From positions 1 to 38,876 of the forward strand of contig JAQURJ010000009.1 in assembly GCA_028715705.1 (NCBI GenBank): DNA of 38,876 nucleotides, read 5' to 3'. The DNA comes from Phycisphaerae bacterium. GTDB lineage: Bacteria > Planctomycetota > Phycisphaerae > Sedimentisphaerales > Anaerobacaceae. Below the pieces are notes generated by a model that was not told the DNA's origin, searched no databases, and saw only the letters and a program-made list of their open reading frames with translations. This document shows positions 2,038 through 28,103 of this stretch, in pieces. Numbering within the stretch: position 1 is the first letter of the stretch; each line of letters opens with the position of its first letter. The translations under genes and the position numbers were made by a program.

Positions 2038-2075
2038 GGCAGACTTGTAAAACTTAAATTTTGTCAGAGAGTCAG

Positions 2076-2855: not shown

Positions 2856-2922
2856 AGTTTGATCGTGATAATTGAAATTGAATTTTTCCCACTCGGTGCA
2901 GCCGACAGGGACAGAGTGCAAT

Positions 2923-4488
2923 ATGACGACATCGACATTGAAGAAAAGACTTTTATTGAAACCTTCGCTGAAATTAAACGCCTTCAGTAATTTGCTTGCT
3001 ATAGGTGTAAATATCGCGATAGGTTTCTTTCTTTTGCCGATAATTTTCTCTCATCTTGGCGCAACGGGTTTTGGCGCATGGATGCTTGTCTCGTCGCTGA
3101 TAGGATATTTTGGGTTACTTCGCCTTGGTGTCGGAACGGGTGTGCTGCGGTATGTTCCGATGTACAGGGGGCAAAAGGATAACGGCAAGATAGAAGAAGT
3201 GATCGGCGCCGCGATGGCATTTTATATTGTGGTTGGGGCTGTTATATTCCTGGTTTCTTATTTTTTTGCTGGAACGATAGCGGATTTTTTTAAGGGCGGC
3301 AGCGAGTTTCAATCGTTGGTGAAATTTGTGGGTCTTGCTGCGGCTATCGAATGTCCGACACTGATATATGATACGGCGATAAGGGGTTTTGAAAGATATG
3401 TTCTTGCTAATACGTTGGTGATTTTAGGAAGCGTTATTAGAGCGGCAGGTCTGATTATCTGTATGAAACTGAGTTATGGCCTTGCGGCAATGGGTGCGAC
3501 GCTGGCAATTGTGGCGACACTGTATTTGATTATAGAAGCTGTGGCATTTAGATTTTACTGCGCAGGTGTACGCGTTATTGTCACTAAGGCGGATATGGCG
3601 GTTTTGAAAATGCTGCTGGCTTACGGTTTTATAGCCATGATCGAGAGCGGAGCGGCGCTTTTGAGCTTTGAATCGCCAAAGATGATAGTGGGCAAAGTTA
3701 TGTCACTTGATACGGTCGGTTTTTTTAGTATGGCGATTATGTTGGTCGCGTACTATAAGCGTTTTGTTTTTTCCGTAACACAGGTGTTTATGCCGCGATT
3801 CAGTTTTCTATCGGGGCGCAAAGATGGAAACAGTATCCGTTCGCTGTTTTTAATCAGCAGCCGGTATGTCACTATCATCGCCGGCACTTTGGCGTTGCTT
3901 ATGTGGGTGGTCGGCCCCGCATTTTTGCGGCTGTGGTTTCATACCGACGCCGTTTCGCAGGTATCCGGTGTTTTGGCCGTTCTTACCGGTGGAATGCTGG
4001 TTTTTGTATCACATCGCATATCCATCGATCTGCTTTATGGGCTTGGGTTTGTAAAGCGAATCGCTGCCTTTGCTTTATTAGAAGGCGCACTGGTATTGCT
4101 GTTTTCGATATTTCTGGCATATCGATATGGAATGACAGGCGTAGCCATAGGCGTCGCCATTCCTTTGATACTGGTAAGAGGGGTGGTTCAGACGTTTTAT
4201 GTATGCAGGCTGATGGAAATAGGGTTTTTCAGTTATTATCTTAAATGTTTTTTGAGACCGTGGCTTATAGTCGCCCTGCTGGCGGTTGGCGGTTATATAA
4301 TCGGAATAGAGGGGTCTATTGGTAGTTGGCTGTCTCTTTTCGGTGTTAGCTTTCTGGCGCTTGCCGCCTATGGATTGCTGACCTGGTTTGTCGTCCTTAC
4401 AGCCGATGAGAAACAAAAACTCAAAACAAGGGCAGCTGAATCACTGTTATCTATAAAAACGCTCTTTTTGGCGGCGGAGAAGGCATAA
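2923..4488 (+). CDS. wzx: Polysaccharide flippase, Wzx / PST family
   Basis: A 521-residue polytopic membrane protein with about 12-14 hydrophobic helices and short loops, typical in length and hydropathy for polysaccharide transporters of the MOP superfamily. Known members flip undecaprenyl-diphosphate-linked repeat units from the cytoplasmic to the outer leaflet. The opening membrane segment (FSNLLAIGVNIAIGFFLLPI) followed by a GATGFGAW-type loop resembles that of Wzx and MATE-like flippases. An in-frame TTG at 2872 would add 17 polar residues; the ATG at 2923 is preferred because the membrane domain starts soon after it. The stop at 4488 abuts the next start. Its position beside glycosyltransferases and a Wzy-like polymerase supports a Wzx/Wzy-dependent pathway. 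The sugar specificity cannot be read from sequence. Confidence 0.85.
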   Translation: MTTSTLKKRLLLKPSLKLNAFSNLLAIGVNIAIGFFLLPIIFSHLGATGFGAWMLVSSLIGYFGLLRLGVGTGVLRYVPMYRGQKDNGKIEEVIGAAMAFYIVVGAVIFLVSYFFAGTIADFFKGGSEFQSLVKFVGLAAAIECPTLIYDTAIRGFERYVLANTLVILGSVIRAAGLIICMKLSYGLAAMGATLAIVATLYLIIEAVAFRFYCAGVRVIVTKADMAVLKMLLAYGFIAMIESGAALLSFESPKMIVGKVMSLDTVGFFSMAIMLVAYYKRFVFSVTQVFMPRFSFLSGRKDGNSIRSLFLISSRYVTIIAGTLALLMWVVGPAFLRLWFHTDAVSQVSGVLAVLTGGMLVFVSHRISIDLLYGLGFVKRIAAFALLEGALVLLFSIFLAYRYGMTGVAIGVAIPLILVRGVVQTFYVCRLMEIGFFSYYLKCFLRPWLIVALLAVGGYIIGIEGSIGSWLSLFGVSFLALAAYGLLTWFVVLTADEKQKLKTRAAESLLSIKTLFLAAEKA

Positions 4489-5319
4489 ATGACCATAGAT
4501 ATATTGATGATAACCTATAACAGGCCGCAGTATACGCGTCTTTCACTTGGTAGGCTGCTGGATAGCTGTGATGAGACGATGCGGGTATGGGTCTGGCAGA
4601 ATGGCAATGACAGCGATACAATTGATGTTGTAAATAGCTTCAGGGGACATCCGCGTTTTTTCAAATATCATCATAGCCTGGAAAACAAAAAGTTAAACAA
4701 ACCGACTAACTGGCTCTGGGATAATGCCGAGGGACAATTTTTAGGCAAGGTTGATGATGATTGCCTTGTTCTATTCGAGTGGGCACAGATATTGCGGACA
4801 GCGCATCTTGACGAGCCGCGTTTCGGCGTGATCGGCTGTTGGAATTACTTTCCGCAGGATGTTGTGCCGGAGATCGCATCAGTAAAGATCAAGACTTTCA
4901 ACAAGGGGCATCAGTTGCTTCAAAACTGCTGGATAGGCGGCAGCGGCTATCTTATGAAACGCCAATGCGTCAATCAGTTAGGATTATTGGATGATGGTCA
5001 TAATTTCAGTGCCTATTGTATAAAGCTTTGGTCTAAAGGCTGGATCAACGGTTGGTATTATCCTCTTATTTATCAGGAGCACATGGACGATCCGCGTTCG
5101 CAGCACACACAGTTGAGGACGGATGAAGACTTAAAAAATGGTATTCCATTGACGGCTAAAAATTTCAGGGTTAGCACGATCGAACAGTGGCTGGAGTTTC
5201 TAAAGAATGACGCGGTTGTACTGCAAAAAGCCTCACTTGATTCTAAAAAATATAGCGGCTGGCGGATGAAGATGAACAGGCTCGGCGTAAAATTAAAAAC
5301 CTGCGGGGGTAGATTGTGA
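4489..5319 (+). CDS. Glycosyltransferase family 2-like protein
   Basis: A 276-residue cytoplasmic GT-A-fold glycosyltransferase. The N-terminus (IDILMITYNRPQYTRLSLGRLL) is the usual beta-strand and loop that bind the nucleotide sugar, and the DXD-type metal-binding motif is the DDD at residues 89-91. A later WIGGSGYLM block resembles the acceptor-side region of the family. The ATG directly follows the stop of the flippase gene, and the 3' end overlaps the next gene by four bases (GTGA), so translation is probably coupled. The gene probably adds one sugar to the growing lipid-linked repeat unit; donor and acceptor are unknown. Confidence 0.85.
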   Translation: MTIDILMITYNRPQYTRLSLGRLLDSCDETMRVWVWQNGNDSDTIDVVNSFRGHPRFFKYHHSLENKKLNKPTNWLWDNAEGQFLGKVDDDCLVLFEWAQILRTAHLDEPRFGVIGCWNYFPQDVVPEIASVKIKTFNKGHQLLQNCWIGGSGYLMKRQCVNQLGLLDDGHNFSAYCIKLWSKGWINGWYYPLIYQEHMDDPRSQHTQLRTDEDLKNGIPLTAKNFRVSTIEQWLEFLKNDAVVLQKASLDSKKYSGWRMKMNRLGVKLKTCGGRL

Positions 5320-6683
5320 TCAAGGCAATAGTTCCGTTTAACATTTTGCTGGCAGCGACAAAAGCGGCAACAGGGGCAGCCTCCGGTGAGTCATCTATTC
5401 ATCAGGTGACATTGATATTGGGCATTCTGTTTGCTGCAATGGTTTTCATTGTACCGCGCAAATATATACTGCTGCCGTTTGTGATAGTGACATGCTTTAT
5501 CCCAGCCGATCAGCGGGTAATCAGTATGGGGCTGGATTTTACACCGCTTAGATTTCTTATACTGGCTGGAGTTGTGAGGCTGCTTTTGCTGGATAATGTG
5601 TATCCACTGAAAATAACCTCGATTGACAAGATACTGATCGTCTGGGCGATTAGCGGCGCGGTTATATTTGTTATCCAATGGGGAGATGCAGGGGCTGTGA
5701 TATATAAATGCGGAGTATTGTTCGATACGCTGGGGCTGTACTGGATATTCCGCAAGAATCTCGATAACTGGGATAGTATAAGACGTGTTATAAAGATATT
5801 TGCCGTTTGTGTGCTTTTTATGAGCGTCTTCGTCGCTTTTGAATGGACCACAGGCAATAACCTATTTAAGTACCTTGGCGCGGTGCATACTGAGGTTAGG
5901 GTGGGCAGATATCGATGTGAGGCCTCTTTTCCGCATTCGATAATGCTTGGCGTTTTCTGGGGAACGCTTGTTCCGCTTTTTGCGGGCATGGCGAAAATTG
6001 ATGACAAGGTGTTATTTGGGAGTGCTTGCGGGGCGGCAGTTTTTATTGTCGCCGCGTCCGCATCGAGCACACCGCTGATGGCCTTAGCGGTGGCTATAGC
6101 CGGATTAATGGTCTATAGGTTTCGCCGTTACACCAGGATTGCGATGTGGTCGTTTGTGGGATTGCTTGCGTGTTTGCATATGATAATGAAAGCGCCGGTC
6201 TGGCATTTGATAAGCAGGGTAAACGTGGTTGGCGGTTCGACCGGATGGCACAGGTATCATCTAATAGATAAAGCCATCGAGTATTTTAATGAGTGGGCGC
6301 TTATCGGAACGAAAAGCACTGAACACTGGGGCTGGGGGCTTGGTGACACTACGAATCAGTATATTCTCGAAGGTATCAGGGGCGGGTTCATTACTCTCAT
6401 ATTTTTCTGTATTATGCTATACCTTATATTCAAGGTATTTTTGAAGATTGCCATATACGCAACGGATGAAAAATATAGATGGCTTAGCTGGTGCTTTTTT
6501 ATTTCACTTGCCGGCCACTGTGTCGCTTTCATTGCTGTTTCGTATTTCGGCCAGATAATGATGCTTTGGTATTTGTTGTTAGCCGCAGCCGGTTCGCTTG
6601 GTCAGAATATTGTGTATTCACAGGCTCCGGTTTTTCAACCTGTAACAAACCCTCCATTCGGATTAAGGCCGCAATATGAATAA
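5316..6683 (+). CDS. O-antigen ligase / polymerase-like membrane protein (Wzy-like)
   Basis: A 455-residue protein with about 10-12 membrane helices and one larger extracytoplasmic loop after residue 300. This is the layout of the O-antigen ligase/polymerase family (Wzy_C, WaaL), which polymerises or transfers lipid-linked glycans on the outer face of the inner membrane. The large loop contains STGWHRYHLIDKAIEYF and a later GLGDTTNQYI segment, resembling the conserved loop of this family, where an Arg and a His are usually needed. It starts with GTG inside the stop of the preceding gene and overlaps the next gene by eight bases. In this locus it is the only polymerase candidate. Polymerase versus ligase activity cannot be decided from sequence. 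Confidence 0.8.
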   Translation: MIKAIVPFNILLAATKAATGAASGESSIHQVTLILGILFAAMVFIVPRKYILLPFVIVTCFIPADQRVISMGLDFTPLRFLILAGVVRLLLLDNVYPLKITSIDKILIVWAISGAVIFVIQWGDAGAVIYKCGVLFDTLGLYWIFRKNLDNWDSIRRVIKIFAVCVLFMSVFVAFEWTTGNNLFKYLGAVHTEVRVGRYRCEASFPHSIMLGVFWGTLVPLFAGMAKIDDKVLFGSACGAAVFIVAASASSTPLMALAVAIAGLMVYRFRRYTRIAMWSFVGLLACLHMIMKAPVWHLISRVNVVGGSTGWHRYHLIDKAIEYFNEWALIGTKSTEHWGWGLGDTTNQYILEGIRGGFITLIFFCIMLYLIFKVFLKIAIYATDEKYRWLSWCFFISLAGHCVAFIAVSYFGQIMMLWYLLLAAAGSLGQNIVYSQAPVFQPVTNPPFGLRPQYE

Positions 6684-7656
6684 ACCACTTATTTCTATAT
6701 TGATAGTAAATTGGAACACATGCAGGCTTACATGCGATTGCATACGGTCCGTGATTGACCAGACTCGATGTGATTATGAAATAATTGTGGTTGATAACGC
6801 CTCCGGCGATGGTTCAGCGGAGCAAATAAGATCACAATTCAAAGATGTTACACTGATTGCAAATAAAGAGAATAATGGTTTTGCCGCGGCAAACAACGAG
6901 GCAATGAAGGATGCGAAAGGTCGATACCTGTTATTGCTTAATAGTGACACTATTGTTCTTGACGGCGCAATAGATAAAACTATCCAGTTCGCCGACAAAA
7001 ATCCCGATGCCGCTGTTGTCGGCTGCAAAATGCTTAACCCTGATATGAGCCTTCAGCGCAACTGCTTTATGTTTCCTTCGCTTTTGAATATGTTTCTTAT
7101 GAGCACTTATCTATACAAGGCATTTGGTCGTAGCCGATTTTACACCAGAGAACGGATGAGCTATTGGAATTACGATACCGTTCGTCAGGTCGATGTCGTT
7201 ACAGGCTGCTTTATGCTCGTAAGAAGAGAAGCTATCGAAGCGGTGGGGGGGATGGATGAGAGCTTCTTCATGTATGCCGAAGAGACCGATTGGTGTTATC
7301 GGTTCAAACAGGCCGGCTACAAGGTTCTATATACACCGTCGGCCAGTATTATTCATTTCGGCGGCCAGAGCAGCAAAATGGTCAGTCAAATGGCTTTGCA
7401 GGTACACGCGAGCGTTTTATTTTTTATCAGAAAACATAAGGGCAGGCTGCAATATGCGATTGCCTGTCTGTTAACATCGCTGTTTTTTATTGTTCGGCTG
7501 CCGGTCTGGGGCGGGATATGGCTTTTGAAAAGAACGGACGCGGCCGCACAGAAAACCAAACTTTATGCGTATGGGGCTTTGGCAGCTTTGGCTGGAGTCG
7601 AGGCGCTATCCGTAAAGGGAGATGAATGTCACGTCGCAGAGAATACGATTCGGTAG
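6676..7656 (+). CDS. Glycosyltransferase family 2, WbbL-like, with C-terminal hydrophobic segment
   Basis: A 326-residue GT2 enzyme of the rhamnosyltransferase-like (WbbL) type. It begins SILIVNWNTCRLTCDCIRS and has VVDNASGDGS in the nucleotide-binding region, an NSD motif with Asp91 in the DXD position, and the acceptor-side pattern GGMDESFFMYAEETDWCYR, which is highly typical of this subfamily. After the catalytic domain, residues from about 254 to 280 are hydrophobic and may dock the enzyme on the membrane. It overlaps the polymerase gene by eight bases and the next gene by 31 bases. It probably extends the EPS repeat unit; the sugar is not predictable. Confidence 0.9.
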   Translation: MNKPLISILIVNWNTCRLTCDCIRSVIDQTRCDYEIIVVDNASGDGSAEQIRSQFKDVTLIANKENNGFAAANNEAMKDAKGRYLLLLNSDTIVLDGAIDKTIQFADKNPDAAVVGCKMLNPDMSLQRNCFMFPSLLNMFLMSTYLYKAFGRSRFYTRERMSYWNYDTVRQVDVVTGCFMLVRREAIEAVGGMDESFFMYAEETDWCYRFKQAGYKVLYTPSASIIHFGGQSSKMVSQMALQVHASVLFFIRKHKGRLQYAIACLLTSLFFIVRLPVWGGIWLLKRTDAAAQKTKLYAYGALAALAGVEALSVKGDECHVAENTIR

Positions 7657-8798
7657 TCTGTTTTGCTGGACAGGACTGGTGGTATCACAACCGTGCGCAT
7701 TCTGATGTGCAGATAATGCGAAACCTCAGTGAGCATATCAAAGTGTTGTTTGTCAACTCGATAGGTATGCGCATGCCGACACCGGGCAAAAGCCCCAATT
7801 TCCTGCGAAAGATAGCCCGCAAGCTGACCAGCATTTCAAAAGGTCTTGTTAGCGTATCGGGCAGCATGTGGGTTTTTTCGCCGATTATGCTGCCGCCTTC
7901 GCGAAATAATAATATTCGCAGGCTAAACGCCGACCTTATCGCATGGCAGATACGCAGGGCGCTAAAGTCTATCGGCGCAAAGAACTGGTTTTACTGGGTT
8001 ACGGTTCCGACAGCTTCGGATATCCTCGAAAAATTACCGCAGGAATTTACCATTTTCAATCGTTCTGATGTCTTCTCGAAATTTCCGGAAGCCCGTGAAG
8101 AGTATATAAGATCGCACGAACGAAAAATGCTTGATAGAAGCGATATTATTTTTTACGTCAATGAAAAATTGATGGCCGAAGATCCAGCCGAGGAAAGTAA
8201 AAAATTCATGCTTAGTCACGGCGTTGATTTTGAGTTATTCAGCCGCAGCGAAATCCATCCAGAACTCAAAAATATCAGACATCCTATTGTTGGTTATTTT
8301 GGCCAAATAGATGACTACACCATTGATACCGAGTTGCTTTTCAATGCAGCAAAGGAACTTAACGATATGTCGTTTGTGCTTGTAGGACCAACGAGTATAA
8401 ATATGAGCAAGATTAAAGCCTTGCCAAACGTTCGTTACTTTGGCCTACGTCCTTATGACCAGATACCGGCTTTCGGCGCAGGTTTTGATGTCTGCATAAT
8501 GCCATGGAAGCAGAATGAATGGATTCTGCGGTGCAATCCGATAAAGCTGAAGGAATATCTTGCTATCGGCTCGCCTATTGTGACAACGCCGTTCCCACAG
8601 ACAAGCGACTATCCCGGTCTGCTTTCTGTCGCCCGTGATATTGGGGATTTCATAAATCGCATAAGAGAGGCAGTTAGTGAGGATGATTCATTGAGGGAAC
8701 TGCGTCAGAGGGCGGTGCAAAATGATTCCTGGCGGTCAAAGTCGCAATTTGTATTTGAACTTGTACAAACAAGGGGAGTTATGCAATGTGCGGAATAG
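7626..8798 (+). CDS. Glycosyltransferase, GT-B fold (GT4/GT1-like)
   Basis: A 390-residue putative GT-B glycosyltransferase. The C-terminal half shows the usual pattern: HPIVGYFGQIDDYTIDTELL starts the second Rossmann domain, then FVLVGP, then a GFDVCIMPW strand and the NPIKLKEYLAIGSPIVTT block, which matches the donor-binding E/K region of GT4-like enzymes. The N-terminal half (VVCFAGQDWWYHNRAHSDVQIM) resembles enzymes often annotated in exopolysaccharide loci. The ATG follows an AAAGGGAG ribosome binding site that lies within the preceding coding region, and the 3' end overlaps the amidotransferase gene by 13 bases. Specific donor and acceptor are unknown. Confidence 0.85.
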   Translation: MSRRREYDSVVCFAGQDWWYHNRAHSDVQIMRNLSEHIKVLFVNSIGMRMPTPGKSPNFLRKIARKLTSISKGLVSVSGSMWVFSPIMLPPSRNNNIRRLNADLIAWQIRRALKSIGAKNWFYWVTVPTASDILEKLPQEFTIFNRSDVFSKFPEAREEYIRSHERKMLDRSDIIFYVNEKLMAEDPAEESKKFMLSHGVDFELFSRSEIHPELKNIRHPIVGYFGQIDDYTIDTELLFNAAKELNDMSFVLVGPTSINMSKIKALPNVRYFGLRPYDQIPAFGAGFDVCIMPWKQNEWILRCNPIKLKEYLAIGSPIVTTPFPQTSDYPGLLSVARDIGDFINRIREAVSEDDSLRELRQRAVQNDSWRSKSQFVFELVQTRGVMQCAE

Positions 8799-10720
8799 CC
8801 GGAATAGTTAATTTTGAACAGCCGGATGCCGGTCGGGAATTTATGCCGGCTATGCTTGAGGTCATGCGTCATCGCGGCCCAGACGGCAGCGGGATGTATT
8901 CGGATGACAATGTCGTATTCGGTCATGTTCGCCTTAGCATTATAGATCTTGCCGGAAGCAAACAGCCGCTTTGCAATGAAGACAAAAGCATCTGGGTGAC
9001 ATTTAACGGCGAGATTTACAATTATAAGCATTTGCGTGAAAACCTGCTTGCAAAGGGACACTTGTTCAGAACCAAAGGTGATACCGAAACGCTTGTTCAT
9101 CTTTATGAAGAGTACGGTGCTGATATGGTAGATCACCTGCAGGGAATGTTCGCCTTTGCCATCTGGGATACAAGGTGCAAAAAACTGCTGCTTGCTCGTG
9201 ACCGCATAGGGATAAAGCCGCTGTACTACTGTAAAAAAGAAAAATCTCTTTTGTTTGCCTCTGAACCCAAGGCGATTATCGCACACCCAAATGTCGAACC
9301 ACGATTGAACCGCCAAGTACTGTGGCATTATCTGACATACCGCACGATCCCTGCTCCGCAAACGCTTTTTGAGGGGATACAAAAATTAAAACCCGGTCAT
9401 GTCCTTACCATAACGCCGCAGGCAACAAATATCCGGCAATACTGGGACATACCGCTGCATTCAGAAAAATTAATAAATAATTTTAACCATAAAAGTGACG
9501 GCGCATTGATAGACCAGGCCGAACGGCTGCTTTTTAAATGTGTCGAGCGCAGGCTTATCAGTGATGTGCCGCTCGGAGCGTTTTTAAGCGGCGGCGTGGA
9601 TTCAAGCCTTATCGTGGCTATGATGAGTAAGCTCACTGATAGTCCCGTGCGTACTTATTCGGTTGGTTTTGATAATTTTTCTTCTTCGGAAACACCCTAT
9701 GCCGACATTGTTGCCAAAAAATTCGCGACTGATCACCACGAGCTTATTTTAGCCGAAAGCTGCTTTGCCGAACATCTCGAGGAACTGACATGGATGAGAG
9801 ACAGCCCCCTAAGCGAACCTGCCGATATACCGCTGCATCTGCTTTCAAAAATGGCAAGCAAGGATGTAAAGTTACTGCTCAGCGGTGAGGGATGCGACGA
9901 ACTTTTTGCCGGCTATCCCAAATATGCCTTTGATAGATTCGCACCGTTAGTTGGCTTTCTGCCCCAGCAAGCGGTAAGTTTTGCAATAGATAAGCTTTCG
10001 CCAGGTATGCGGCGCGTGGAAATTGCTCTTAGAAGCCTTTCAGAAACTGCCCCCGCCGATCGATGGGCACAGTGGTTTTCGCCGTTTACTCCATATGAAA
10101 AGCAGGCTCTTCTCGGAGGTATCGAAGTATCTGAAAATCCCACAGCCGAATATGTTCGCGCAAAACAGGTTTGCAGCAGCCTTGATGCGATGTTATACGC
10201 AGACTGCAAGCTTTGGCTGCCGGAGAATCTGCTCGACCGTGGCGACAGGATGACAATGGCAGCTTCGGTCGAGGGTCGCGTACCGTTTCTTGACCACGAA
10301 TTTATCGAATATGCTTTCGCTCTCCCTGTCAATGCAAAAATAAGAAAATTCGACCGCAAGTGGTTGATAAAACAGGTCGCTCTGCGTCATTTGCCAAGGG
10401 ACATCGTTTATCGAAAGAAAGTCGGCTTTGCCATTCCGCTGGCACAGTGGTTTTGCGGGCAGCTGAAAAATATGTGTTATGACAGGATATGCGGCAAAAA
10501 AAGTTTTCTTACCGATTTCTTTTCTGCTTCGCAACTTCGTACTATTCTCGATGAACACAGCTCCTTGCGAAAAGACAATTCACATAAAATATGGACGCTG
10601 CTCGGACTTTCAATTTGGGCTGATGTCGCCTGTAAGAAATCAAAAATTTCACCTCGGTCCAATTCGATAGAAGTATTAAATGGAGGAATCAATGAACGAA
10701 CAAGTAAAAGCCTTAGATAA
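8786..10720 (+). CDS. asnB: Asparagine synthase (glutamine-hydrolysing)-like amidotransferase
   Basis: A 644-residue class II glutamine amidotransferase fused to an asparagine-synthase ATP-pyrophosphatase domain. Cys2 of MCGIAGI is the N-terminal nucleophile; HRGPDGSG (residues 29-36) and FNGEIYNY (73-80) are standard glutaminase motifs. The synthetase half has the PP-loop SGGVDSS (268-274) and the later ENLLDRGDRMTMAASVEGRVP region. In exosortase/EPS loci such paralogs are common and are thought to amidate a sugar, an acid or a protein, rather than to supply asparagine. It overlaps both neighbours (13 and 29 bases). Whether this copy makes asparagine or modifies the glycan is open; context favours the second. 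Confidence 0.9.
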   Translation: MCGIAGIVNFEQPDAGREFMPAMLEVMRHRGPDGSGMYSDDNVVFGHVRLSIIDLAGSKQPLCNEDKSIWVTFNGEIYNYKHLRENLLAKGHLFRTKGDTETLVHLYEEYGADMVDHLQGMFAFAIWDTRCKKLLLARDRIGIKPLYYCKKEKSLLFASEPKAIIAHPNVEPRLNRQVLWHYLTYRTIPAPQTLFEGIQKLKPGHVLTITPQATNIRQYWDIPLHSEKLINNFNHKSDGALIDQAERLLFKCVERRLISDVPLGAFLSGGVDSSLIVAMMSKLTDSPVRTYSVGFDNFSSSETPYADIVAKKFATDHHELILAESCFAEHLEELTWMRDSPLSEPADIPLHLLSKMASKDVKLLLSGEGCDELFAGYPKYAFDRFAPLVGFLPQQAVSFAIDKLSPGMRRVEIALRSLSETAPADRWAQWFSPFTPYEKQALLGGIEVSENPTAEYVRAKQVCSSLDAMLYADCKLWLPENLLDRGDRMTMAASVEGRVPFLDHEFIEYAFALPVNAKIRKFDRKWLIKQVALRHLPRDIVYRKKVGFAIPLAQWFCGQLKNMCYDRICGKKSFLTDFFSASQLRTILDEHSSLRKDNSHKIWTLLGLSIWADVACKKSKISPRSNSIEVLNGGINERTSKSLR

Positions 10721-11483
10721 AAAACCGCCAGCCGTCAATATCCTCGGCCTTAATGTTCATGCTATCGATATGCGGCAATTGATATGTATAGCGGATAATT
10801 ATATCCAAAGCCGAACTCAACTGCTTCTCGGCGTAGTCAACGCTGCCAAACTGGTAAATATGAAAAAGGATAAAACGCTACGTCAAAGCCTTGAACAAAC
10901 CGATCTGATGTTAGCCGACGGTATGCCCATAGTATGGTTGTCCAGGCTGCTCGGTAAACCGCTGCCGGGAAGAGTGGCTGGAATAGAGATAATGTACAAT
11001 CTTATGGAGCTTGCTTCAAAGAAAGGCTACAGAGTATTTTTCCTTGGCGCCGCGGAAAATGTCGTTCAAAAAGTTGCCGAAAACGCGAGGGAAAATTATC
11101 CCGGTATGAAGATTGCGGGATACAGGAACGGCTATTTCTCTGAGGATGACCAACAGGATGTTGCCGAGCAGATAAAAAGCAGCCGCGCCGACATTCTTTT
11201 TGTCGCCATAACCTCACCTAGGAAAGAGAACTTTCTCAGTAAATACAGGCTCTTTATGGATGTTCCTATATATCACGGTGTCGGTGGAAGTTTCGACGTA
11301 TTCGCCGGAGTGACCAAACGAGCGCCTTTGTGGATGCAGCGTTACGGGCTTGAATGGTTCTATCGTTTTATGCAGGAGCCGTTGAGAATGTGGAAAAGGT
11401 ATCTTGTGACCAATACCATATTTTTGAAACTGAGCTTTCAGGCTGTTCTCGAATCAAGATACAAACGTGTGATGGACAAGTAA
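10692..11483 (+). CDS. WecG/TagA/CpsF family glycosyltransferase
   Basis: A 263-residue GT26-type enzyme. Known members transfer ManNAc, ManNAcA or glucose to an undecaprenyl-diphosphate-linked sugar, usually as the second step of glycan assembly. Visible hallmarks are the N-terminal VNAAKLVNM, the DGMP motif (residues 76-79), RVAGIEIM (about 94-101), VFFLGAAENVV, and the C-terminal GVGGSFDVFAGVTKRAP followed by GLEWFYRFMQEP. The C-terminal basic tail matches the membrane-docking appendage of the family. The ATG at 10692 is chosen over 10680 because the ribosome binding site GGAGG lies six bases before it and overlaps the earlier ATG. It overlaps the amidotransferase gene by 29 bases. Confidence 0.92.
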   Translation: MNEQVKALDKKPPAVNILGLNVHAIDMRQLICIADNYIQSRTQLLLGVVNAAKLVNMKKDKTLRQSLEQTDLMLADGMPIVWLSRLLGKPLPGRVAGIEIMYNLMELASKKGYRVFFLGAAENVVQKVAENARENYPGMKIAGYRNGYFSEDDQQDVAEQIKSSRADILFVAITSPRKENFLSKYRLFMDVPIYHGVGGSFDVFAGVTKRAPLWMQRYGLEWFYRFMQEPLRMWKRYLVTNTIFLKLSFQAVLESRYKRVMDK

Positions 11484-11488
11484 CTGGT

Positions 11489-13423
11489 ATGAAAAAAAAG
11501 CAGATAAAAATAAAAGCTATTATTCTTGCGGGCACGCGGGATTTTGGTAGATGCCCCATAGCGTCAAAAATGCCGCTGGCAATGTGGCCTCTTGTCGATA
11601 AACCGATCGTAGAAAAATTACTTACGCGCCTTACCGAAAACGGTATTGAGGATACCTATATATGCTGCAACGGCGACAGCTCCATGCTGCAAAAATCATT
11701 ATCCGAAGTTTACGGAATGAATGTCAAATTTCTTGACGAACCGTTTCCGGCAGGTACTGCCGGATGTATCCGCGATGCCGCCAACGGTGATACGGAGTCA
11801 CTTTATCTGCTTATTCACGCTACATTTCTGCCTTGCTTTGATATCGCGAAAATTATCATTCAGCACAAAAACGATGTCGCCGAATTATCTGTAGTTCTTG
11901 CGGAAAATACGGCAGAAAGTTGGCAAACGGTGATGCATGTTTGTGAGCCTACGGTGCTCGATTTTATACCGGCTGTTGGTTACTTTGATATAAAAGAAGG
12001 TCTTATCCCCGCTATGGTCAGGCATGGGCGAACCGTTAGGGCACAACGTCTGTCCGAAAAATTCATCAGTTTCCATGACCGTGATTCATATATTCGCTCG
12101 CTCGACAAATATCTGCAAACTGCCGAATTTCCACAGAGTTTCGGCGATGATTTTGTCAGGGATAACTCGGTAATAAGGGCTAAAAGTGCTTACATTGCGC
12201 CGACCGCCCGCATCTTCGGCAAGGTTGTATTACGTGACAATGTTCGTATAGAGGATGACGCTGTGCTTTTCGGTTCATGCGTTATCGGAAACAATTCCTG
12301 CGTTGGTAAAGGTTCGATAGTCACCGGTTCTATTATATGGGACAATGTCAAAATTGGGGATAATTGCTGCATCAAAAACTGCGTTATAGCCAACAAGGCC
12401 GCCATTCCGGATAACAGCGTATTTGAAAATCAAGGCATAACTTGGGCAAAACAATATTTCAGGATGTACACAGATATAAAGAAATTTGCTGTTCGTATGG
12501 AAGATCAAGGTGTACAAAAGCTGCATGAATTTTCGAGAAAACCTTTCCCTAAGCATGTAGCGATTATTTCGGCAATACTTTTGCTGGCAGCTTTTTTGTG
12601 GTCTTATTTACCCTCGATTCAGGAGTTGTCCCAGATATGGATGAAAAGCGATGAATATTCCAGCGGCCTGTTGGTTCCGTTTTTGGGGGTTTATGTTTTA
12701 TGGACACGGCGGAGTAAATTTTCAGACGCCCAAATAAAACCCTCGCTTTACGGTCTTTTTATTCTCGCATTAGCGGAAGCCATGCGACATTTCGGTCTGT
12801 TTTTTATGTACGGTTCAGCGCAGCGGCTTTCGCTTGTGGTCGCTATTTTTGGATTTGTATTGCTGTTATTCGGTACAAAAATATTTGCGAAAGTGTTTAC
12901 AATTTTGATATTTTTATTTCTGATGATACCTCCCCCCAATCGTGTGCACGCTGCGGTGACACTTCCTTTGCAGGAGCTTGCGACCCGTTCGGCGGTATTC
13001 TGTCATGAGATGCTTGGTATGCAGGTATTTCGGGAGGGAAACGTCATTCACCTTAACGGTTCTGCGGTTGCCATTGCCGAAGCCTGCAACGGTCTGAGAA
13101 TGGCGACAGCATTTCTGGTTATAGCGGCCTGGGTGACCTTGCTTGCCTCGCGGCCCTGGTGGCAGAAGGGGCTGGTGTTTTTATCCGCGTTGCCAATCGC
13201 TCTTGTCTGTAATACGATAAGGCTGGCGCTTACGGCAATAGCGTTCACACGTATTTCCGGGCCAAGATGGGAGACGCTGTTTCATGATTTTGGCGGCTAT
13301 GCGATGATGCCGCTTGCGCTTGGAATGATCTTTTTTGAGATATGGCTGTTTGACCGTTTGACAGTCGAACGCAAAGATGCCAAGCCGCAAATAATTTATA
13401 GAACCCTCAGTATGAACTCTTAG
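11489..13423 (+). CDS. Nucleotidyltransferase / left-handed beta-helix / exosortase fusion
   Basis: A 644-residue protein that joins two functions. Residues 9-220 form a sugar-nucleotidyltransferase-like domain ([12 protein letters not shown], then [12 protein letters not shown]). The usual catalytic PK signature appears as MPLA, so activity is doubtful. Residues 225-315 are left-handed beta-helix hexapeptides (for example [18 protein letters not shown]). Residues 354-640 are an exosortase with about eight membrane helices: [16 protein letters not shown] near its start, EACNGL with Cys533, NTIRL with Arg578 and LFHDFGGY with His599, the conserved Cys/Arg/His expected for catalysis. Exosortases cleave C-terminal sorting signals from secreted proteins and pass them to a surface anchor. 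The in-frame ATG at 11489, just after the preceding stop, is the likely start. The fusion is unbroken by stop or frameshift. The exosortase subtype was not determined. Confidence 0.88.
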
Positions 13424-13440
13424 TTGTTGGAGAAATGAGT

Positions 13441-15699
13441 ATGTACGATCTTGAAAAATACAATGGTAACGACGGCGGACATAATATGTTGACATTATCC
13501 GGCGCGAATAATGGTCAGTCGGATACAAAACTGATAATCCCGATGTTGCGAAGGTGGCGTATAGTGCTTTTGATATTCCTTATCTTTACCGGCATAGGGA
13601 TGCCGATAGTCTGGTTGAAAATAAAACCAGCGTATCAAACTACTGCGGCTATCAGGATCAAGCCCATCCTGCAGCGGTTGGTGTATGGTGATATGGAATC
13701 GGAGCGCGTTATGCCTATGTACACCAACTTCATGAATACTCAAGCCGACCTGATACAGAGCGATAAAATACTTCAGCGGGTTGCCGATGATCTGGTGGAA
13801 AGGGATTTGAGCTATTTTGCGGAATCCGATCTGACGGCAAAAGAGAAATTGCTCGGTAAGAAATCGGCGGACCCGGTTGTGAAGCTTCGCAATACTCTTT
13901 CGAGCGAAACACTTTCAGTTAAGCCTGAAGAGGACAGCGAGCTTATCAAAATTTCGATGACCAATTCCAATCCTTATGAAGCCGCCCAGATCGTCGACGC
14001 TTTTGTCCAGGCGTATATGGCTATAGTTGTTTCTGACGAGACCGAAGAAGGAGATCTGAAGCTCAATGTTCTTGAAAATGAAAGGAAAATGCTTGCCGAT
14101 AAGCTTCAGCGTCAGCGCAAATCCATACGGGATCTCGCCGAAGAATACGGCACCAGCGCTCTTGATTCAAGACGCAGCATCGGCCTTGAAAGAGTCGCTA
14201 CATTACAGTCTAAGCTCACAGAGTTCGAAATGCGAAGGATTGCGCTCGAGGTACAGGTGCAGATGCTGGAAAACTCGCAAAACCGCAAAATCGAAGTGGA
14301 AGATTTTGTCAAGCTCGAAAATGATTATGTCAATGCCGACCTGATGGTTCAAAATCTCAGCGCCAATATCGCGGAACTTGAACAGGCATTGATTGTCGCA
14401 CAGCAGACTCTTGCCCCGACCAACCCAGAACTTGCCCGCAAGACCCAATTGATTGAAACCCTTAAAAATCGTCTCAAAGAACGACAAGAAGAGGTGGTTG
14501 GTAATTTTGAAAAAATGGTTGCTGCGGAGATGAGTAAAAATGACAAAGTTCAGCTTGCCAACGCCAGGTTTGAACTTGATGAAGTAAAGGCGCATACCGA
14601 GCATCTGAAGAAAATACTTGCCCAGGAAGATACCGGAACAATTGCACTTGGCAGAAAGCAGCTTGCGATAGACGATCTTCAGGAGCAATTACAGCTAACA
14701 AAGGATTATTACGAAACTGTGCGGCAGCGTATTCAGGAGCTTGAAGTAGAACGCAAGCGGCCGGCTCGGATTTCGGTGGCTTATTACGCCAATACAATTC
14801 CGGAAGATGACAAACGAATGAAGTTTTCGGCGGTGGTTGTTTTCGCCGGACTTGCCTTAGGCGGGTTATTTGCCTTTATGAAGGATAAGACCGACACCAG
14901 TCTGCATACGCCGGAAGATGTTATCAAACATGTCGGCAGCAGGATAATCGGAACCACTACTCGCACTGATGGAATGCGAAAGTCGCTGTTGAGCCAGCAA
15001 GTGGCCGAAGACTATGAGACGATTTTTGCAAATCTCGGTTTATTCAACGGCGAAGAAATTCCCTGTAAGCTGACCATAACCAGTGCCGGGCCGGGAGAAG
15101 GCAAGACAACGCTTGCTATAAATCTTGCAAGCAGCATTGCAAGGTCGGGTAAAAAAGTCCTGTTGGTTGATGGCGACCTCAGAAAGCCCGATATTGCTCG
15201 CCTGCTGCGGATACAATATCCGCGTAATGGGCTGCGCGAATTGCTGCGAAGCAAGAAATTCGAGGATGTTGTTTATACCGAACCGACAAGAGGCATTGAT
15301 GTTCTGACCGCTAACCCTTGTCGTCCTTCGGATATATATGAGTTGATCGCGAAAAAAAACACTCTGAATTTTATTAACGCTGTCAGTCTCAAATATGACC
15401 ATGTTATCATCGATTCGCCCCCTGTGCTTGCTGTGCCCGATGCCCTGTTGTGGGCGAAAATGGCTGATGCTGTTATCCTGACCAGCTTTGCTGACCGTAC
15501 AGAAAGCGAAGACCTCAAAGAGACTTTTGCCAGACTGACAAGGATTAAGGTTAAGGTGATAGGGACGGTACTTAATAACGTCAGCCGCAACAATAGTTAC
15601 AATCCCTACGGCTACGGCTACGCCGCAAGCGTCAAAAGAACCAGAAAACCGACTAATGCCGTTTTGCTGCCGACACAGAAAAAGGAGCAGAGTCAGTGA
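13441..15699 (+). CDS. wzc: Polysaccharide co-polymerase with tyrosine autokinase domain (Wzc-like)
   Basis: A 752-residue Wzc-type protein that controls polymer length and export. The N-terminal Wzz domain has a first membrane helix at about residues 41-58, a long periplasmic coiled-coil region (about 190-430) and a second helix near 460-478. The cytoplasmic BY-kinase carries Walker A GPGEGKTT (550-557), Walker A' VDGD (576-579) and Walker B VIID (655-658). A short C-terminal tyrosine cluster (Tyr720, 723, 725, 727) is the expected autophosphorylation site. Wzz and kinase are in one chain, as in proteobacterial Wzc and unlike most Firmicutes. ATG 13441 is preferred because GGAG sits eight bases upstream; ATG 13435 is only two bases from it. 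No Wza-type partner is visible in the window. Confidence 0.92.
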
Positions 15700-17297
15700 T
15701 ATCAACATTTGTAAATTACAATGTGATACATAACGAATCGCAAGCGGAAACATCATTGCTGCGAAAAGTTTTCACTTCGCCGTTTTTGCGGGATATCTTC
15801 TGCCGGCTTCGGTTTATTCACAATGGTTTTCAAAACAGTAAAAAACTGTTTGCACCGAGCCAGTGGCAGTGCGGAAATTCGCCGAATATACGATCGACCA
15901 ATTATCATACCATTCTTTCTTCGGACTTGATTCACAAAGGGATCGATTGTGTAATATCAAACGCAGCTTATGTGACGGATTTTAATATCAGCCGCCTTAA
16001 CAAACTTATCAGCCAAAACGGTGCCGACATATTCTCTGTTACCGTCGATCCTGATTTGGTCGGTTACAGGGAAAAAATACTGGTGACATCACGCGGCGGC
16101 ATCGCCGGCGTCCGAAGGATGTATGGAAATTATATTGAATCTGACAGGATACCGTGTTGTTGGCCGCATCATTTTGTTATCAGAAATTCAAAATTGAACA
16201 GGATAATTCGTGAAGGCGGTCTTTGTGCCAGTTTTGGTGATTTTGTGGAACTGTCACTCCGCCTTGGGCTGATCTGGAAGAGTTTTAGAATAGGCGGCTG
16301 GGTTCTTAACCTTGAAGAGCAAAGCGATCTGATTGAATTTTTTAGTAATGCCGCCAGTTCGATGCCGCAGAATAGAAGCGATAAAAAGCAAACGCAAATT
16401 CATTCCGGCGCAAGACTCGTCGGTAAAAATATTTTAGCCGACAGTGTTAAAATTGACAAAGGTGCGGTTGTCCTTGGTCCTTCGATACTTGCTGATAATG
16501 TTACACTCTCAGCCGACTGTGCTATAAACGCTTCTATAATCGGGCCCGGGGTTTATATTGAATCTGGAACGGTTCTTGAAAACAGAATCGTATTTGAAAC
16601 GCCCCTCGACTCATCTGAACCGCATAGGCCAAAACCGACACCGTCGAGAATAATAAACAAAAGTTTTAGAACCTGGCCGCTGTTATCATACCCGCGATTA
16701 ATTAAAGGTGTAATTGATTTTCTTATCTCAGCAGCGGCGATTATTTTATTTGCGCCTGTTTTTCTTATAGTCGCCATTGCCGTCAAGCTCAATTCAAAAG
16801 GTACTGTCCTTTTCGGACACAAGCGGCAGGGCAAAGGCGGCAAAGAGTTTCGGTGCTGGAAATTTCGCACTATGATTATCGGTGCGAATGATATCCAGAA
16901 CAAACTTCGCACAAAAAACGAAGTTGATGGACCGCAATTCAAAATGGAAAACGATCCGCGAATAACAGCTGTTGGCAAATTTCTTAGAGAAACATATCTC
17001 GATGAAATACCGCAATTTATTAACATCCTGCTCGGGCAGATGAGTCTTGTAGGGCCTCGCCCATCGCCAAAAAGCGAAAACTCTCTTTGCCCGGTATGGC
17101 GCGACGCCAGACTTTCGGTACGACCGGGTATTACAGGCTTGTGGCAGGTCAAACGCACACGGCTTGCCGGAAGGGATTTCCAGGAGTGGATATACTACGA
17201 TATAAAATATGTCCAAAATATGGGTCTTTGGCTTGACATTACCATTTGTCTTCGGACTGCCGCAAAGTTGATCGCTAATTTTTTAAGGAAGATTTGA
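15696..17297 (+). CDS. Initiating sugar-1-phosphate transferase with nucleotidyltransferase/beta-helix-like N-terminus
   Basis: A 533-residue protein. The C-terminal part (about 334-533) is a bacterial sugar transferase of the WcaJ/WbaP type, which starts glycan synthesis by moving a sugar phosphate onto undecaprenyl phosphate. It has one hydrophobic re-entrant or membrane segment (335-365), the KFRTM motif, [23 protein letters not shown] in two parts, LVGPRP, and [11 protein letters not shown]. Instead of the usual four-helix or CoA-binding-like N-terminus, residues 70-220 resemble the middle of a sugar nucleotidyltransferase without its GxGxR loop, and residues 235-300 are beta-helix hexapeptides. 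The GTG start lies inside the stop of the kinase gene, with GGAG eight bases upstream. The N-terminal assignment is inference from pattern; the transferase call is firm. Confidence 0.88.
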
Positions 17298-17309: not shown

Positions 17310-20300
17310 ATGGCAAAAAAATATAGTTTTAACTGGAAGCTGGCATTAGTGTTTGTTGTTGCGGTACTGATACTCGCCTTTACAGCCGTAAAACTGCGAA
17401 GCTGGCAGCGAAACCGAATGGCTTTAAGGGCCTATCAGGTTGGGCTTGTGGCTTATGAACAGGGACAGTGGATGGAAGCGGCAAGAAATTTAGGTCAATA
17501 TGTCGCTGTCAATTTGCAGGATGTGGAGGCTCTGCTTAAATATGCCGACTCGCAATTGAATATCAGACCTTTAAAACAGGACAGCGTTAAACAAGCCATA
17601 GCTTCATATCGTTCCATACTCAGGATAGACCGCCGCAATGAAGAAGCGGCAATGAAATTGATAGATCTTTATTTACAGATGAATATCGCCTCCGAAGGCC
17701 AGTTTATCGCTGAGCGATTTCTTGAACAAAAAAATTCTCCTTCCATCCGTAAACTGCTGGCTTCCTGTTTTATTCAGCGAAACGAACCTAAAAAGGCTTT
17801 TGAACACTTAAACAAGGTTGCTGCGGATGATTTCACCGATATCGCGGCGTTTGAGAATCTCGGAAAAATAATAGAACGAAATCAGGAAGATTTTCTTGTG
17901 CCGAAATCGTACTGGTTTGAACAGGCTGTTGAGAAAAATCCTGCAAATGCAATGGCTTATGTGGTTCGCGCCTCTTTCTATTTGCGTAACGGCCAAAAAG
18001 ATAAAGCTGCTGAAGATCTCATGAAAAGTGAACAACTCGATATATCCGATCCAGCGGTGCGGCTGCGGCTTGCGGTTGAATTTGCCAATGCACAAGATTT
18101 TGAGAAGGCGTACTATCATATTAACGAGGCCAGAAAAAACGACCCGCAAAATCTTTCTGTATGGCTGACATGGGCGGATATTGCGATGCATCAGGGAACA
18201 AAAGAGCAGATGGCCGGCATTGCCAAAAACGGGCTGCAAACTCTTAAACAAAACCTCGACTTTATGCCGGTCGCAGCGGAATTGTTAATTCGAGCAGATG
18301 AACTGGAACAAGCCGAACAATGCATTGTTACTCTCAAAAAATACCAGATCGATCCGCCTTATACATTGTATCTGGATGGCCTTTTAGCCGACAAGCAGCA
18401 GGATGACAATAAAGCCATACAAGCGTTTCGTCAGGCAATTGGGATGGGTGATGATTCACAAAGAACCAAACTGGCTCTGGCGGTTGTGCTTGACAGAAGC
18501 GGCGACTATGTTTCTGCGATAAAACAGCTAAGAACTCTTGTTGCTGAAAATCCACGTTTCTTCGCCGGTCATTTCGAACTTGCTCGTATATTTCTAAAAC
18601 TTCAGGATTTTCATGAAGCCGAAAAATCCGCACTATTTGCGATTGAATTGCGGCCCGATGACATCAGTGCCGAGATGATATATCTTCAGGCTAAAATAGG
18701 ACTGATGGACGGGTCTAATGAAAAGGATATCAGTCAATTAGAGGCTCTTTTGAGCGAGTTTGAAGAAAAAACCGGCGGCTCTGCGGAGGCAAAACTCCTT
18801 CGCTTCCGATTCTCCATTCGATGCGGCAAATTTGAAAATGCGCAGCAGGATATCGAACAGATACCGGCACAAGACAAAGATAATTTTCAAGTTGCTATGG
18901 CAAAAGTTGATCTGCTCCGTGCTCAGGATGAAAATGAAAAAGCCATAGAAATGCTTATCGAAATAATAAGTAAATACCCACAGGAAACTATCCCAGCCGT
19001 GACTCTTGCCGACCTGTTTGTGCAGGAAAACGATTATCAAAAGGCGTTCAGTGTCCTTAACGAAGTGATGGATCGGACAGAAAATCTGTCTGCTCGGCGT
19101 CAGCTTGCCCTTTTCATTGCGCAGATGCACTACAAGGTCGGCCAGACCGAACAATCGCTCGAATTCCTAAAGACTGTTGACACAAAATTACAAGACCAGA
19201 TACCCATAAAAATGGCTATGATTCAGTATGCTCAAAAACTCAACAGGCTCGCATTTTGCCAGCAGGTCATCGATCAGGTACGAATATTAGAAGGTGACAG
19301 CGGAAAACAGTGGAAGTATGCGCAGGCGAATTTGTGGTTGATCGGAGACGATTTTTCTGGGCATTATCCGCAAATCGTGGAAATACTTAAAGAGAATCTC
19401 GCTGCCAACCCCGAAGACCAGCTAAGCCGGGTACTTCTTGCCTCGGCTTACGAAAAGGCTGGGCAAAAGCATCTGGCTGTAAATACATATAAACAAGCCC
19501 TGCAAATCTGGCCTGAAAATATAAAAATACTCTCGATGACAGTGTCCGCTATGTATAAGATAAAGCAATACAATCAGGCCGATGAACTGCTCGACAGTTT
19601 TATCGATCAGCCGAACCTTAACCCCGAGTTTGCTAAAGTTCGGCTCCAAAGCTATCTGCGAAGAGGCAGAATAAAACAGGCTCACACCATTTTGGAGCAG
19701 CTTGTCGCTCAGGATCAAAACGATACAACCTTGCAGCTTGCCATTGCGCTGCTCAAAATGACTGAGCAGGATTATGACGGCGCTGCCGAAATGCTGAACA
19801 AACTGTGCGAGAACAGTCCAAATTTCTTGCCCGTTTTTACCGCCATAATTGAGCTTAACATTCGCCGCAAAAATTATGACAAAGCCCTTGAGGTTTGCGA
19901 CAAAATGGTAGCGGACTTCAATAACGCCTCACCTTATATCGTTCGCGGCAAAGTCTATGCAATGCTCGGCAGAGACAGTGACGCTAAAACTGATTTTATA
20001 CGTGCATCCCAGATAGAACCGTCCAATATTGAAGTTTGGATACTTAAAAGCGATTTTTATCGTTCCATCGGCGATATGGAAAATGCGGCAAGCGACATTG
20101 AAAAGGCGCTTACCATCGACCCCTCCGACGCTCTTATATGCAAACGAGCGATATCGCTGTTCCTTGCCTCCGATGATTCCGATAGAACCCGAAGGGGTAA
20201 AGTTCTTCTTGACCGTGTTCTTGAAGCTAACCCCGATGATGTCGAGCTTCAGATTTATCATGCGGCTTTATTGATAAATAATCAGAGCATCAATGACCGG

Positions 20301-21488
20301 CAGCAGGCGTCTTTGATACTTCAGAAAATTACGGAACAGCATCCCCAATATCCGCAGGGCTGGGTGCTTCTGTCTCGTATTTATCTTGAAAGAAAGGAAA
20401 AAGGCAAAGCCATGGAAGCCGTTCTCGCAGGGTTTGAGTACTCTCCCAACGACAAGATGCTTCTTGCCGCGAAGGCGCATATTGAAGCCCAGGGGTCGCC
20501 TCAAATCGCCATTCCCACCCTCAAAATGCTGAACGAATTATATCCTGATGATGCGGCTATCGGATTGAGTCTTGCCGACATTTATACTGCTGAAGGAAAT
20601 TTCGCTTTGGCGATTGACACACTTAACGAATTGAACGCTCATTGTTCGCAGCTCCAAAAAGCCAAGGTCGATGCTTCTCTGGCCGCTGCTCTATACCGAA
20701 GCGGCAAAAAACAACAGGCGCAGCAGCAATTCCAAACCCTCTACAAAGGCTCGGTTGATCTTGGCCAAGTTTTCTTGACGGAAATGGATCTATTCATCGA
20801 AGAAGGTGACTACGGTAAGGTCGATGGTTTGATCCAGCAGCGTTTAAAGACCATCCCGATGCAGAAAAGCACCCTTGTCACGGCGGCGCAAAAACTTGCT
20901 GTTACTGGTGACCCGAATGCACGGAAGATATCCGAAAGTCTCTTGCGGCTGGTGCTCGATCAGCAGCCCGACAATATACAGGCTTTAAGCAGCCTGGCCA
21001 TACTCCTGCAGATGCAGGGCAAAAATACCGAATCCGAGAACTTGTATAAACGCGTTCTCCAGTTGGAAAATGACAACCTTGTCGCGATCAATAATCTTGC
21101 CTGGCTGCTGTGTGAACAGGACGGCAAAACACACGATGCACTGCGGCTTGCCCGCAGGGGGCTTGAAATATCGCCGGATTATGCCGACCTCATAGATACC
21201 TGCGGAATTATTTATTACAAGCTTGGCGAACACGGGAAAGCCGTCGAATGTTTTACGCGGTGTCTTGAACTTTTCCCAAAGGGTAGCGCACCAGCGGCGT
21301 TGTCGCATTTTCATTTTGCGCAGGCCAGTGCCTCGCTTGGCGACACTACCGCAGCGGCAAAGAATTTACTGATAGCTCTGCAAATAAGCACAACAGCCGG
21401 AGGCCTGAGCGATTCACAGACCCAGCAGGCTGAAAACCTTTTGGCTAAATTATCGAAAGAGGATAGCCATGGCAAAATTACCCGATGA
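17310..21488 (+). CDS. Giant membrane-anchored TPR-repeat protein (PrsT-like role)
   Basis: A 1392-residue protein with one N-terminal membrane helix (about residues 10-27) and then almost nothing but tetratricopeptide repeats, visible as repeated A-Y-x-x-x-G and A-x-x-P spacings such as LASAYEKAGQKHLAVNTYKQAL. The repeats extend to the C-terminus, where FHFAQASASLGDTTAAAKNL closes the array. The orientation suggests that the repeat domain is extracytoplasmic. Large TPR proteins (PrsT) accompany the exosortase/PEP-CTERM EPS loci of proteobacteria, where they are presumed scaffolds; a homologous role is inferred from context only. The gene starts 12 bases after the initiating transferase and overlaps the LuxR-type gene by 20 bases. 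Confidence 0.85.
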   Translation: MAKKYSFNWKLALVFVVAVLILAFTAVKLRSWQRNRMALRAYQVGLVAYEQGQWMEAARNLGQYVAVNLQDVEALLKYADSQLNIRPLKQDSVKQAIASYRSILRIDRRNEEAAMKLIDLYLQMNIASEGQFIAERFLEQKNSPSIRKLLASCFIQRNEPKKAFEHLNKVAADDFTDIAAFENLGKIIERNQEDFLVPKSYWFEQAVEKNPANAMAYVVRASFYLRNGQKDKAAEDLMKSEQLDISDPAVRLRLAVEFANAQDFEKAYYHINEARKNDPQNLSVWLTWADIAMHQGTKEQMAGIAKNGLQTLKQNLDFMPVAAELLIRADELEQAEQCIVTLKKYQIDPPYTLYLDGLLADKQQDDNKAIQAFRQAIGMGDDSQRTKLALAVVLDRSGDYVSAIKQLRTLVAENPRFFAGHFELARIFLKLQDFHEAEKSALFAIELRPDDISAEMIYLQAKIGLMDGSNEKDISQLEALLSEFEEKTGGSAEAKLLRFRFSIRCGKFENAQQDIEQIPAQDKDNFQVAMAKVDLLRAQDENEKAIEMLIEIISKYPQETIPAVTLADLFVQENDYQKAFSVLNEVMDRTENLSARRQLALFIAQMHYKVGQTEQSLEFLKTVDTKLQDQIPIKMAMIQYAQKLNRLAFCQQVIDQVRILEGDSGKQWKYAQANLWLIGDDFSGHYPQIVEILKENLAANPEDQLSRVLLASAYEKAGQKHLAVNTYKQALQIWPENIKILSMTVSAMYKIKQYNQADELLDSFIDQPNLNPEFAKVRLQSYLRRGRIKQAHTILEQLVAQDQNDTTLQLAIALLKMTEQDYDGAAEMLNKLCENSPNFLPVFTAIIELNIRRKNYDKALEVCDKMVADFNNASPYIVRGKVYAMLGRDSDAKTDFIRASQIEPSNIEVWILKSDFYRSIGDMENAASDIEKALTIDPSDALICKRAISLFLASDDSDRTRRGKVLLDRVLEANPDDVELQIYHAALLINNQSINDRQQASLILQKITEQHPQYPQGWVLLSRIYLERKEKGKAMEAVLAGFEYSPNDKMLLAAKAHIEAQGSPQIAIPTLKMLNELYPDDAAIGLSLADIYTAEGNFALAIDTLNELNAHCSQLQKAKVDASLAAALYRSGKKQQAQQQFQTLYKGSVDLGQVFLTEMDLFIEEGDYGKVDGLIQQRLKTIPMQKSTLVTAAQKLAVTGDPNARKISESLLRLVLDQQPDNIQALSSLAILLQMQGKNTESENLYKRVLQLENDNLVAINNLAWLLCEQDGKTHDALRLARRGLEISPDYADLIDTCGIIYYKLGEHGKAVECFTRCLELFPKGSAPAALSHFHFAQASASLGDTTAAAKNLLIALQISTTAGGLSDSQTQQAENLLAKLSKEDSHGKITR

Positions 21489-22682: not shown

Positions 22683-22730
22683 AATAACCTGTGAGCAAAG
22701 AGCCAACTCTAAATTATGAGAAAAGCTAAT

Positions 22731-28052: not shown

Positions 28053-28081
28053 TTGATAACTATTCCATTTTGCGTTATACT
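28053..28081 (+). promoter_or_regulatory. Sigma70-like promoter of the GH130 gene
   Basis: TTGATA (28053-28058) and TATACT (28076-28081) are separated by 17 bases; both match five of six consensus positions. The start of transcription would lie near 28088, shortly before the ribosome binding site of the gene starting at 28104. It sits just after the MEMO1-like stop. Confidence 0.6.
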
Positions 28082-28103
28082 GCACCGAAAATGGGGAATA
28101 AAT

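Follow-up and report, generated by a model that had tools for sequence, protein, structure and literature searches.

Gene content of the polysaccharide locus

The window analyzed in our study, that is, the whole stretch of 38,876 nucleotides of contig JAQURJ010000009.1 from a Phycisphaerae bacterium (assembly GCA_028715705.1), contains a forward-strand run of polysaccharide and exosortase-associated genes in which two gene fusions are embedded (Table 1). Upstream of the first fusion, the polysaccharide genes are separated by at most 16 nt or overlap one another. The second fusion lies two genes downstream of the first, and its product is predicted to be the initiating phosphoglycosyltransferase of polysaccharide synthesis.

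Table 1. Coordinates of the features identified in and around the two fused genes.
Feature	Positions	Strand	Basis
EpsI-like exosortase-associated protein (under cut-off), separate gene opening the run	2061-2855	+	
Polysaccharide genes: flippase-like, glycosyltransferases, amidotransferase, WecG/TagA-type	2872-11483	+	
Asparagine-synthase-type amidotransferase	8786-10720	+	within polysaccharide run
WecG/TagA-type glycosyltransferase	10680-11483	+	within polysaccharide run
Fused gene: pseudo-pyrophosphorylase, left-handed beta-helix (LbH) and exosortase, 644 aa	11489-13423	+	ORF, Pfam, relatives
Domain with pyrophosphorylase fold, about residues 8-210; other residues in place of the PK Lys, the GTR Arg and the first metal Asp	11510-12118	+	
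LbH, hexapeptide repeats, about residues 222-317	12152-12439	+	
Long helix and linker ahead of the membrane domain, about residues 322-364	12452-12580	+	model
Exosortase membrane domain, residues 366-621, with Cys533, Arg578 and His599	12584-13351	+	
Gene separating the two fusions: Wzz/Wzc-type chain-length protein, tyrosine-autokinase-like at its C-terminus	13435-15699	+	
Second fusion: degenerate pyrophosphorylase-fold N-terminus, LbH and Bac_transf phosphoglycosyltransferase, 533 aa	15696-17297	+	Pfam, hhalign, AF2
TPR protein (PrsT-like, 1392 aa) and LuxR/GerE-type regulator closing the run	17310-21867	+	

The TPR protein (17310-21488, 1392 aa) is PrsT-like, as in exosortase loci, and exceeds the 899-position PrsT model. 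Further downstream, a 158-aa open reading frame (22716-23192) with the methyltransferase-like stretch ELGCGTGPIDRKGFY has no NCBIfam match and is possibly a truncated gene, and just past the polysaccharide run lies a CPBP-family membrane protease (23220-24062) that weakly resembles sorting proteases of the myxosortase type. A GH130-type mannooligosaccharide phosphorylase (28053-29147) is encoded fairly near the polysaccharide locus, and any connection with a polymer that contains mannose would be speculative.

Domains and conserved residues of the fused protein

The initial annotation described one uninterrupted frame that joins a nucleotidyltransferase-like domain, a beta-helix and an exosortase, and our analysis bears this out: the frame 11489-13423 is open over its 644 codons, and the Pfam domains NTP_transferase (residues 9-135; E 4.6e-7, 30.1 bits against a cut-off of 21.2), LbH_EIF2B and Hexapep (residues 229-316; E 6.9e-15 and 3.1e-8) and Exosortase_EpsH (residues 366-621; E 4.8e-53) follow one another in this order. 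Residues 9-315 also match the NCBIfam mannose-1-phosphate guanylyltransferase model, far under its cut-off. If two genes had been joined, a start codon preceded by a ribosome-binding site would be expected inside the frame near 12540; in the inspected region of the frame, the ATGs at 12464 and 12497 lack a convincing, well-spaced Shine-Dalgarno sequence, and we consider the fusion genuine. The N-terminus is probably cytoplasmic because a signal peptide is not apparent and basic residues precede the first membrane helix.

The C-terminal part exceeds the general exosortase thresholds, with 180.6 bits for PF09721 (cut-off 25.7) and 138.1 for TIGR02602 (cut-off 105.55). Its nearest typed NCBIfam models are XrtD (159.5 against 400), XrtW (146.6 against 425) and XrtA (127.2 against 208), and the protein stays under every typed exosortase cut-off listed. 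The proposed active-site residues were correctly located by the initial annotation, and they are retained among the fused relatives (C533 in 77/77, R578 in 77/77 and H599 in 76/76). These features point to an exosortase, a membrane enzyme presumed to direct proteins to the cell surface. The fused protein resembles the EpsH exosortases (PF09721/TIGR02602) in its full-length domain match, in the conservation of Cys, Arg and His, and in its exopolysaccharide locus with EpsI-like, Wzz/Wzc and PrsT-like genes, and it differs from them by the added N-terminal pseudo-pyrophosphorylase domain and LbH.

It had been noted that MPLA replaces the PK signature, which is correct (residues 28-31), and the loss of catalytic residues proved to be family-wide and to go beyond this motif. 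In the alignment to solved pyrophosphorylases, the GTR Arg corresponds to G20, the PK Lys to L30 and the first metal Asp to T112; each of the three is lost in 76 of the 77 fused proteins, so that the domain has the pyrophosphorylase fold of a sugar nucleotidyltransferase but not its catalytic Arg, Lys and metal Asp. The second metal position is S194 in the fused protein and mostly Asn across its fused relatives; since this position is also Asn in GlmU, residual metal binding is possible by analogy. Eight residues (W33, G89, G92, H126, D167, K169, E170 and Y201) are invariant or have a single miss among the 77 proteins, and the GTAG region is nearly invariant. Catalytic residues that are lost while other residues of the domain are strictly kept indicate that it is a conserved, catalytically dead pseudoenzyme with a non-catalytic job under selection, and not the outcome of simple decay.

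The retained parts include the D167-I-K-E170 region and the strip E84-x-x-P87-x-G-T-A-G92, which aligns with the strip responsible for base recognition in canonical enzymes, while the residues that handle phosphate and metal are lost. In place of the usual glycine-rich loop motif the protein has RDFGRC, and in the alignment to VTC1 it lacks the stretch where the EKP motif would normally be found; because of these two changes, the contacts that canonical enzymes make to phosphate and sugar may be lost.

Significant profile and structure matches were obtained to VTC1, GMPPB, GMPPA and the gamma and epsilon subunits of eIF2B. The AF2 model of the fused protein (27 sequences, mean pLDDT 79, pTM 0.50) matches CugP (8x7s) and GMPPA/GMPPB (7d72-7d74) with E values of 1e-16 to 1e-19; due to its pTM of 0.50, the relative placement of the domains in this model is unreliable. 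The GDP-mannose pyrophosphorylases (VTC1, GMPPB and CugP tlr0611) share with the fused protein the N-terminal fold, the LbH and the GTAG region, whereas the fused protein has lost their catalytic Arg, Lys and first metal Asp and is joined to a membrane enzyme. GMPPA and eIF2B gamma/epsilon are closer in that they also combine a degenerate pyrophosphorylase fold with an LbH and are non-catalytic, but they are soluble regulatory or exchange-factor subunits. By analogy, the closest known mode of action for the module would be that of the non-catalytic GMPPA, which binds GDP-mannose and acts as an inhibitor of its partner GMPPB (PMC11228364).

Distribution of the module and its probable partner

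The single-frame fusion is present in 57 of the 119 genomes of the order (118 related genomes and the source genome), and the relatives encoded by the other 56, of which several are single-contig assemblies, are about 34-49% identical to the 644-aa protein. A phylum-wide sample yielded the same architecture again in a family that belongs to another class (genomes G149, G192 and G210; loci L146, L147 and L149). An alignment-based scan of a public genome collection identified 187 stretches that encode relatives, in contrast to a single-sequence scan of the same collection, which returned zero matches. The best 80 of these 187 relatives are nearly all from planctomycete metagenome-assembled genomes (MAGs) labelled Sedimentisphaerales, Phycisphaerales, Phycisphaerae or Planctomycetota, with one labelled Pelotomaculum and one labelled Kuenenia. 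It is important to consider that an assembly error or a frameshift could have joined two genes, and the source MAG consists of 186 contigs with 6.6% contamination; signs supporting such an artefact were not found in our analysis, and the frame recurs in 56 further genomes of the order, several of which are single-contig, a result that excludes chance or sequencing error and leaves this explanation a negligible probability.

The fused form is accompanied by split and lone forms. In other Phycisphaerae families (L153, L154, L155, L159 and L160), the exosortase has a gene of its own, immediately preceded by the gene of a diverged module, and in L154, L155 and L160 a plausible exosortase start overlaps the module stop by 4 nt, the usual mark of translational coupling. 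Within the order, L033, L034 and L045 have the module and the exosortase as separate adjacent genes, and most of these genomes are nested among the fused ones in trees with modest support values, which suggests secondary splitting of the fusion. The separate module gene of L045 (7516-8880, minus strand) has about 100 additional residues inserted within the pyrophosphorylase-fold domain. Three further genomes (L035, L036 and L037) have the module without an exosortase in the same operon slot, and these module-only loci retain the phosphoglycosyltransferase partner.

This partner has a module of its own. The N-terminus of the transferase aligns with the exosortase module by hhalign at 99.3% (E 2e-20), with the LbH contributing part of the match. 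The transferase module is very diverged, and a recognisable N-terminal half is absent; the AF2 model is good in its N-terminal part, which matches the same pyrophosphorylase structures, and poor elsewhere (mean pLDDT 66). In the genomes G194 and G317, a fuller NTP domain and LbH are fused straight to the Bac_transf enzyme. N-terminal extensions are known in general from monotopic phosphoglycosyltransferases with extra domains, such as the Bi-PGT and Lg-PGT types (PMC10942596); the predicted enzyme at 15696-17297 is likewise a monotopic phosphoglycosyltransferase with an N-terminal extension, which here is pyrophosphorylase-like with an LbH and homologous to the exosortase module.

Among the 72 module genes followed by 4.5 kb or more of available sequence, 71 have the transferase gene downstream on the same strand; some loci in this set appear twice under two names, so that there are fewer independent cases. 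At the median, the two genes lie 2.4 kb apart, which leaves space for about one Wzz/Wzc gene. In L082, the fusion is present and the transferase partner is absent within 8 kb downstream. In L047 (the same locus as L129, genome G104), a clear exosortase lacks the module, a TPR gene comes directly after Wzc, and the partner is absent too. Since the module-only loci keep the partner and L047/L129 lacks both together, the module appears to track the phosphoglycosyltransferase more closely than the exosortase, with few genomes behind the last step. The initial annotation viewed the module as an addition to the exosortase; the fusion itself stands, but a primary role as exosortase accessory does not agree with the absence of the exosortase from L035-L037 or with the 71 loci that have the partner. 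Polysaccharide initiation is the more likely main partner, because the module occurs without an exosortase and a homologous transferase module is found in those same 71 loci.

Possible roles of the module and of the exosortase

To our knowledge, no physical link between exosortase sorting and glycan synthesis is known. A cytoplasmic module common to an exosortase and a predicted initiating transferase is a concrete candidate for such a link, and the natural variants (fused, split, module only and exosortase only) make it testable. Our proposal, which we hold with evenly balanced confidence, is that the module acts as a cytoplasmic regulator or scaffold and that a putative exosortase-transferase membrane complex couples sorting to polysaccharide initiation. 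The exosortase of an exopolysaccharide locus would bear on its cytoplasmic side a dead GDP-mannose-pyrophosphorylase-like domain with an LbH; the two modules would meet via their LbH or pyrophosphorylase-like faces, like the catalytic and non-catalytic subunits in GMPPA/GMPPB; through this pairing, a single membrane complex would hold or regulate both the exosortase and the initiating transferase, and surface-protein sorting would thereby be coupled, in place or time, to the onset of polysaccharide synthesis. We infer the association of the two modules by analogy, and because both proteins carry a dead enzyme of the same type, sorting and the start of the polysaccharide are probably coupled at the membrane. 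The control of an initiating phosphoglycosyltransferase via protein contact has a precedent in EpsW-EpsZ (PMC12802240). It counts against coupling that the genes of a polysaccharide operon can stay together without physical contact; however, mere co-retention is insufficient, since it leaves the same fold on both membrane proteins unexplained. If the proposal is true, it would provide a prokaryotic case resembling GMPPA and eIF2B, with dead pyrophosphorylases as regulators.

Other readings assign the module a different task. The retention of the base-recognition strip and of D167-I-K-E170, while phosphate and metal residues are lost, together with the precedent of GMPPA acting on GMPPB (PMC11228364), would fit an allosteric sensor in which a nucleotide sugar bound by the dead domain turns the exosortase or the transferase on or off with precursor supply; we regard this as possible but doubtful, given the RDFGRC loop and the missing EKP-motif region, and the conserved residues could be structural or part of an interface. 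A somewhat less probable idea is a nucleotide-sugar-gated exosortase that would read the precursor pool and sort only during the polysaccharide start, within the transferase complex; if this were true, the sorted protein would perhaps be joined to, or released with, the polymer.

The fusion may also be neutral, if coupled neighbors were joined by loss of a stop and the module serves the polysaccharide and does nothing for the exosortase. Such a history would be in line with the families that keep the genes separate, some with the 4-nt overlap, with the persistence of the module in L035-L037 and with the apparent secondary splitting in L033, L034 and L045. We nevertheless think it rather unlikely, because the single-chain form dominates the order across dozens of genera and occurs in another class, and a pair already adjacent before the fusion itself suggests functional linkage. 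If the domain were still an active nucleotidyltransferase that used unusual catalytic residues to provide a sugar nucleotide at the membrane, this would account for the strictly conserved residues and for the mostly Asn, GlmU-like second metal position; with the PK Lys, the GTR Arg and the first metal Asp each lost almost throughout, and with three further NTP_transferase proteins in the source genome that score much higher in Pfam, such activity is very improbable. An acetyltransferase role of the LbH was considered as well, and specific evidence in its favor was not found.

Exosortase genes have long been known among exopolysaccharide genes, and the exosortase fusions described in 2006 are those with EpsI and CAAX-protease-like domains (PMC1569441). 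The initial claim that no exosortase with such an N-terminus had been described is consistent with the literature searched, in which no such family surfaced. Publications pairing an exosortase with a nucleotidyltransferase were not found, which is weak evidence because most subscription papers were outside the search, and our search for a phosphoglycosyl transferase with PglD or a nucleotidyltransferase likewise found none. The fused gene represents a conserved planctomycete exosortase architecture with a probable regulatory pseudoenzyme, for which we found no previous description.

With regard to the substrates, the source genome has a second exosortase without the module (G000:C122, 30% identity) and, alongside it, 10 PEP-CTERM matches at E <= 0.1. 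Our study compared the number of PEP-CTERM matches per genome, with a median of 18 in the 57 genomes with the fusion and 24 in 51 without it (P = 0.075). Because the counts are no higher with the fusion, we rejected a role as general PEP-CTERM processor, and control of PEP-CTERM sorting in general by the fused exosortase is unlikely; the enzyme may serve one or a few proteins tied to the local polysaccharide. One genome with the fused exosortase (G007) has zero PEP-CTERM matches at E <= 0.01. Another group of module-less exosortases, about 40% identical to the fused one, was identified in G017, G023, G030, G037, G044, G051 and G059; these genomes have just 3-5 PEP-CTERM matches, and this group may use a different sorting signal.
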